64,000 bases of DNA from Lachnospiraceae bacterium (GTDB lineage Bacteria; Bacillota; Clostridia; Lachnospirales; Lachnospiraceae). How positions within the stretch are numbered: the first letter of the stretch is position 1; each line of letters starts with the position of its first letter. Of the stretch, positions 14,451 to 58,604 are shown piece after piece. The notes under the pieces were generated by a model. The model searched no databases. It was not told the DNA's origin and saw only the letters and a program-made list of their open reading frames with translations. The DNA is taken from NCBI GenBank assembly GCA_030527645.1, contig JAUNAJ010000014.1, positions 1-64,000 on the forward strand, written 5' to 3'. A program made the translations under genes and the position numbers.

Positions 14451-14499
14451 AGCTGCCTCCTTTATTGGATACTTGTTACTGTTCGCGTAACGGATAATG

Positions 14500-20775: not shown

Positions 20776-20975
20776 ATTCCAAATGCCTCCTTTTCCCAGG
20801 TTTGCAATTCCACTTTACGGGCAGAGACGCCCCCGGAATCATCCGGTTCAAACGAAGATTGTTCACCTGTGTTCGTCATGGTTACAGTATAGCATCATTC
20901 ATCCTGCGATTCCAGTGAGACATGACGCAACTTCTTTTGCGTGCAGCTGCTGACGTTACTGTTCATGATCACCTC

Positions 20976-42234: not shown

Positions 42235-42372
42235 CGTAAGTATTCCTCCTGTTTAGTATTGCTGTCATGGATAGATCTCTGTCAGAAATCTTTCTTAAGA
42301 CATAATTATACTATGAATACCTGCATCTGAAAAGTATTTCCCCCTTTTTCTGCGTTTAAGGCTCTATTACGG

Positions 42373-42568
42373 GTTACAGTTCACGGGGAACCTCCCATTC
42401 ATGCGCAGTCCCCGCCGTTACACGGCGGGGGCTGCTGCAGACGCAGCCTGACTGCTTATGAATGGGAGGTTCCTCGATCCCGAGACAGCAGGAGATACGC
42501 ATGCAGTCTCTTACATGCCAGCATGACGAGCCAGCATGCGTATCTCCTGCTGCCCCGTGAACAGTAAC
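42373..42568. repeat. 196-nt nested palindrome forming a three-way junction
   Basis: Outer arms GTTACAGTTCACGGGG (42373-42388) and CCCCGTGAACAGTAAC (42553-42568) pair with one mismatch. Directly inside are two complete hairpins with no spacing: arm pair 42389-42402/42458-42471 (14 bp, perfect), which itself holds CCCCGCCG/CGGCGGGG and GCTGC/GCAGC stems, and arm pair 42486-42503/42535-42552 (18 bp, perfect). No reading frame fits. The outer arms and right flank are repeated at 58561-58604 without the inside. It occupies the gap between fructokinase and degV; 42235-42372 otherwise holds only the fructokinase upstream region. Confidence 0.85.
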
Positions 42569-42587
42569 TATTGCGGTACTGTTCATT

Positions 42588-47510: not shown

Positions 47511-47671
47511 TTGGAAATAATATACAAAAAATACGCTTCAAAATTGTTGTTCCTGTTCACGGGAACGCAGTTCTGATCAGTTGGCGGAAATCGAGTACGG
47601 TCAGCACCTCCCGGGAGAGCAGTCAGCACCTTCCGGCTGCTCTACCGGAAGGCAGGAACACCGCTTCTGCT

Positions 47672-58379: not shown

Positions 58380-58560
58380 ATTCCACCATCCTGAACTTTA
58401 TTTAAATGCACTTCAGTCACCTGCAGCACTAACCTGCATTCGCTTCCGGGTCATAATTCACTACCTGGAAGAAATGGAGTAACTCAAGCTGAGGTACAGC
58501 TATCTTTAGTGTAACACAGAAAACCATGATACGCGTATCCGGTTTCAGATTGTTCGATTA

Positions 58561-58604
58561 TTACAGTTCACGAGGTGAACAGTAGCTGTTCGATACCGTT
58601 CACT
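58561..58604. repeat. short copy of the 42373 element
   Basis: TTACAGTTCACGAGGTGAAC is a hairpin of the same outer arms as 42373-42568, and the next 24 bases (AGTAGCTGTTCGATACCGTT then CACT) match the right flank of that element. The long inner part is absent here. Confidence 0.7.

Follow-up and report, generated by a model that had tools for sequence, protein, structure and literature searches.

Structure of the palindromic element and its short copy

The window, a stretch of 64,000 nucleotides from a Lachnospiraceae genome, contains a 196-bp palindrome at 42373-42568 and a matching short copy at 58559-58586. The palindrome was confirmed as real by sequence reading and folding. Folding of both strands gave -81 and -86 kcal/mol (z = -14 and -13), and no shuffled sequence folded as well. 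The outer arms (42373-42388 and 42553-42568) are 16 nt each with 94% complementarity. In stem A positions 42387-42402 pair with 42458-42473, whereas the perfect 18-bp stem B is formed by 42487-42504 and 42534-42551. A sequence-only reading of this DNA had described a three-way junction; the palindrome and its stems were indeed found, but the junction has four arms, since a small hairpin sits between stems A and B. The same reading held that nothing in the element reads as protein, in agreement with the lack of protein signs in a mechanical 88-aa ORF that spans it. An Rfam scan of the window gave no match at the cut-off, and the element's weak matches to microRNAs and speF were discarded as hairpin noise. 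The features of the two copies are as follows.

42365-42372, no strand: left target-site duplication TATTACGG, matching 42569-42576 at 7 of 8 positions (duplications of the family are exactly 8 bp)
42373-42388, plus strand: left terminal inverted repeat GTTACAGTTCACGGGG
42387-42473, minus strand: hairpin A, a long stem with two sub-hairpins (folding; conserved in other genera)
42389-42552, minus strand: interior as a single structured unit (covariance model R1)
42473-42484, minus strand: small 4-bp hairpin CTCG-ATCC-CGAG between A and B (folding)
42487-42551, minus strand: hairpin B, an 18-bp perfect stem under a conserved apex (folding; covariation)
42508-42530, minus strand: conserved apex of hairpin B, CTCGTCATGCTGGCATGTAAGAG on this strand
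42553-42568, minus strand: right terminal inverted repeat (arm complementarity)
42569-42576, no strand: right target-site duplication TATTGCGG (direct-repeat comparison)
42577-42585, plus strand: TACTGTTCA, read as the remnant of a neighbouring element end
58551-58558, no strand: left target-site duplication of the short copy, TGTTCGAT
58559-58586, no strand: short copy, the two inverted repeats separated by no more than GAG
58587-58594, no strand: right target-site duplication of the short copy, TGTTCGAT
58594-58603, plus strand: TACCGTTCAC, read as the remnant of a neighbouring element end and sharing 1 base with the duplication

The internal loop of hairpin A reads ATAAGCA/TGCGCAT on the window minus strand and ATGAGCA/TGCGAAT in other genera and in RF01699 (Clostridiales-1 RNA). 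In many relatives the small hairpin between A and B reads CTGCGAAGCAG.

Copies, ends and target-site duplications in the host genome

The recurrence of the element was determined by BLAST against its own genome (2.46 Mb, 46 contigs). This gave 59 matches at 70-97% identity, about 10 of them full-length; some of the 59 are one place matched again on the opposite strand via the palindromes, and all told the genome holds about 10 complete copies and some 30 partial ones. The same search of two congeners revealed no match at the DNA level. The terminal inverted repeats, GTTACWGTTCACGGG, are roughly 15 bp long, and the end sequence GTTACNGTTCACGGG was present at 111 sites (59+52) with at most one mismatch, compared to none (0+0) for the reversed control. 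The expectation that the element recurs elsewhere in the genome was thus borne out by full-length copies, truncated copies and end sites. At L086, a locus of the own genome, a truncated copy is adjoined by a run of N, either a gap or withheld sequence.

The target-site duplication is exactly 8 bp. It was identical in 13 of the 24 copies with paired ends and matched in at least 7 of 8 positions in 18 of them, while shuffling of the partners gave 0.7 on average; exact direct repeats of 5, 6, 7 or 9-12 bp were not found among the 24. Internally shortened copies of 24, 80 and 81 bp kept intact ends and exact duplications, and others had one duplication mismatch (27 and 77 bp) or two (54 bp). Two interiors with no relation to this one (142 and 235 bp) also lie between the same ends and duplications of this kind. 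The element therefore has terminal inverted repeats and a fixed-length target duplication, and it is short (196 bp), multicopy and free of a transposase gene, as is characteristic of miniature inverted-repeat transposable elements (MITEs). In keeping with the earlier suggestion of a miniature mobile element, it is very likely that 42373-42568 is a copy of such a non-autonomous transposable element.

The 142-bp copies form a subfamily of near-identical sequences with the same ends and, for the most part, exact 8-bp duplications. Their interior, also made of hairpins but a different one, holds a nested 27-bp end-to-end palindrome. The copies were located in L023 (1352-1493), L063 (283-424), L064 (309-450), L067 (299-440), L068 (306-447), L069 (326-467) and L091 (199-340), and are probably the most recently active group. 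The 235-bp copy (L094, 317-551) is flanked by an 8-bp duplication without mismatch and contains repeats of GCACAGG; similar internal repeats occur in L087.

Copies were intergenic in 36 of 37 cases and showed no orientation preference relative to the neighbouring genes, an observation that makes a role as a leader or as a dedicated 3' tail less likely; cis-regulation was rejected for the lack of orientation bias. The gene order of this locus is not kept in the congener, which thus offered no orthologous empty site for comparison.

The sequence-only reading had also proposed that the long form arose when a 160-nt module was inserted between the arms of a short base repeat. The two forms do have end sequences and the adjoining TACYGTTCA in common, and the right flank noted earlier as shared is real; it consists, however, of TACYGTTCA preceded by the right target-site duplication, whose sequence is not the same at the two sites. 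The TACYGTTCA motif is read as the remnant of another element end, and the same type of arrangement beside a duplication was seen at loci L064 and L091. Since the window copy is flanked by TATTACGG/TATTGCGG and the short copy by TGTTCGAT/TGTTCGAT, the two copies inserted independently. Moreover, the ladder of 24, 27, 54, 77, 80 and 81 bp consists of graded internal deletions with intact ends, and no duplication was seen at the inner boundary. Insertion of a module is therefore most improbable, and the ladder indicates that the short copy is probably an internal-deletion derivative rather than a base form that received a module. The same inverted repeat is also left as a single end at three more places in the window (14474-14490, 20954-20965 and 47549-47563).

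A derivation from REP sequences had been offered as well. Candidates of this kind are a REP/BIME mobilised by the Y1 transposase RAYT and a palindrome derived from IS200/IS605. The element is palindromic, intergenic and multicopy, as this would predict, but it has 8-bp target duplications. REP/RAYT repeats and Y1 transposase chemistry are not known to make target-site duplications; the REP reading is thus not supported and its probability is close to negligible.

As a MITE, the element would be mobilised by a transposase supplied from elsewhere that recognises the roughly 15-bp terminal inverted repeats, makes an 8-bp staggered cut in the target and inserts the element into intergenic DNA. The 8-bp stagger, the single feature bearing on the type of enzyme, suggests a DDE-type transposase acting in trans. 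Replication through the palindromes may then delete interiors and leave short copies such as that at 58559-58586. TIR-pair scans revealed no autonomous copy with the same ends in the own genome, genomes G272 and G199 and 0.92 Mb of other loci. A 4.4-kb TIR pair on contig C2 (locus L179) was rejected as an autonomous element because the pair scan gave no matching duplication. A cognate insertion sequence would be defined by the ends GTTACWRTTCAC or GATACCAGGGTCAAAAG together with 7-8-bp duplications. The 15-base end gave 17 scattered matches on viral contigs, and a scan of genome contigs with the own-type sequence gave no match.

The interior and its relation to Clostridiales-1 RNA

The conservation of the interior was analysed in 397 genomes of one family, which is Lachnospiraceae judging by the named matches. 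The apex of hairpin B, CTCTTACNTGCNNGCATGACGA, was found with at most two mismatches in 25 of these genomes, in several of them repeatedly, and a control pattern gave few matches. Its commonest variant, the AA form, occurs in named Lachnospiraceae, for example Pseudobutyrivibrio xylanivorans MZ8, Blautia schinkii and Coprococcus MAGs. The same-apex elements of relatives have a like arrangement and similar ends (GTTACTATTCAC) with different stems. Loci L150 and L186 were not counted as elements, since the DNA at the position concerned looked like normal flanking or coding sequence.

The covariance model R1 was built from seven elements of other genera after removal of their inverted repeats, and this genome contributed nothing to it. 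R1 found the window interior on the minus strand with 90.4 bits (E 4.5e-21). In a ten-sequence alignment 89% of the cells pair, and 35 of the 46 pairs have changed on both sides; none of 500 shuffles scored as high, and the score of 0.535 fell to at most 0.13 when the structure was slid. Among 392 genomes of the order, interior matches were nearly all within the same family, with two weak ones outside. The possibility that the inner hairpins vary as single units was confirmed in part: in L008 and L018 the whole of stem B has been exchanged, yet the changes are compensatory and the apex above it is constant.

The RF01699 model matched the same-apex elements of relatives with 63-133 bits; a tandem array of a congener is among these matches. 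It scored above the cut-off in 177 of the 397 genomes of the family, and all 14 control genomes were without such a score. On the other hand, the best score of the window family in its genome was 23.4 bits, compared to a gathering cut-off of 48 bits, and the window copy itself gave no match at E up to 10. R1 links the two, since it matches both the window copy (90 bits) and the RF01699 members L113 and L126 (31-46 bits); these matches show that hairpins A and B are homologous between the window family and RF01699. Members of RF01699 resemble the window element in the ATGAGCA/TGCGAAT internal-loop hairpin, in the CGTCATGCTTGCATGTAAG apex hairpin of some members and in length, and differ in their ends (GATACCAGGGTCAAAAGG) and in an extra hairpin, P4, on the 3' side, which is absent from the window family. 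Scoring below the Rfam cut-off and lacking P4, the window family is thus a relative of RF01699 and not a member.

Like the window element, RF01699 copies have inverted-repeat ends and 7-8-bp direct repeats. Among 33 copies with the paired ends GATACCAGGGTCAAAAGG/GATGTTGGGGTCAAAAG, exact direct repeats of 7 bp were found in 14 and of 8 bp in 7, and none of 4, 6, 9, 10 or 11 bp; these copies, too, look like transposable elements. The accessible literature that was searched contained no link between RF01699 and transposition.

In L112, L118, L189, L192, L196, L198 and L200 the arrangement is permuted, with B inside the arms of A and an GGGCGAAGCCC hairpin. Related elements also occur in tandem arrays at L165 (G272), L113 (G002), L223 and L225. 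What separates neighbouring elements is either one target duplication or a unit with a constant length of about 184-191 bp; the array at L165 shows the full element-duplication-element order. These arrays look as if dimers or circles had inserted.

Maintenance of the interior and comparison with known elements

The interior is a module of several hairpins, conserved between genera and related to RF01699, and it would evolve in the form of a folded RNA from the window minus strand. The noncoding RNA suggested earlier is supported in part, on sequence grounds, by the covariation, the covariance-model link to Clostridiales-1 and a wobble bias. The stems covary while the loops stay fixed. The hairpin-B-first strand, which is the window minus strand, folded better in 44 of 44 elements, and wobble pairs in the variable stem B favoured it by 55 to 22 (p = 2e-4 by distinct events); these counts, and those of the covariation, overstate independence because the copies are related and share loops, and by genome the bias was 16 to 6 with p = 0.05 only. 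On balance we lean towards maintenance of the interior as an RNA read from this strand. The module is presumed to be transcribed, and a function of its RNA is equally putative.

It is also conceivable, if somewhat doubtful, that the element is a plain MITE with no RNA function, its hairpins being kept at the DNA level by replicative template switching and its apices binding the transposase or a host protein. Whole stems are replaced between copies and are still perfect, neighbouring genes impose no orientation bias, and internally deleted copies persist with ends and duplications intact, all as this would predict; the preference of folding and wobble pairs for one strand argues against it, as do the apex and internal-loop motifs common to element families with unrelated ends. 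A chromosomal family of noncoding RNA genes of the Clostridiales-1 type, spread by ordinary duplication with incidental flanking repeats, would agree with the strong covariation and with the catalogued status of RF01699, which Weinberg et al. 2010 list as a candidate or probable RNA, probably not cis-regulatory (PMC2864571). It is nevertheless very unlikely, given the exact 8-bp direct repeats that abut the inverted repeats at unrelated sites, the corresponding 7- and 8-bp repeats of RF01699 copies and the unrelated 142- and 235-bp interiors with the same ends and duplications.

Returning to an RNA-bearing MITE, a broader proposal, which we put forward tentatively, is a Lachnospiraceae superfamily of such elements with different ends and one conserved functional RNA that includes Clostridiales-1. 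If so, the RNA would be functional and not incidental, for example in controlling transposition or in adapting insertions to host transcripts. The present findings offer a mobile-element explanation for RF01699, an orphan Rfam RNA. They also raise the question why the folded RNA of a transposable element should be conserved from genus to genus when the ends of the element are not. Both matters are testable in culturable gut species.

Bacterial MITEs in general (reviewed in PMC10969869) are likewise short, gene-free, intergenic and highly folded, with inverted-repeat ends and direct repeats. The present family differs in its interior, a G+C-rich structured module that is conserved between genera, and in that no parent insertion sequence was found in the genomes and loci scanned. 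The pneumococcal BOX, RUP and SPRITE repeats, too, are small, interspersed and predicted to form extensive RNA structure; mobilisation in trans is assumed for BOX and RUP, and BOX is modular and expressed in places (PMC3049150). The window element resembles them in size, dispersal and predicted structure and differs in sequence, ends and hosts. Furthermore, BOX varies in the number of tandem boxB units (PMC3049150), whereas the window family varies by stem replacement and internal deletion.
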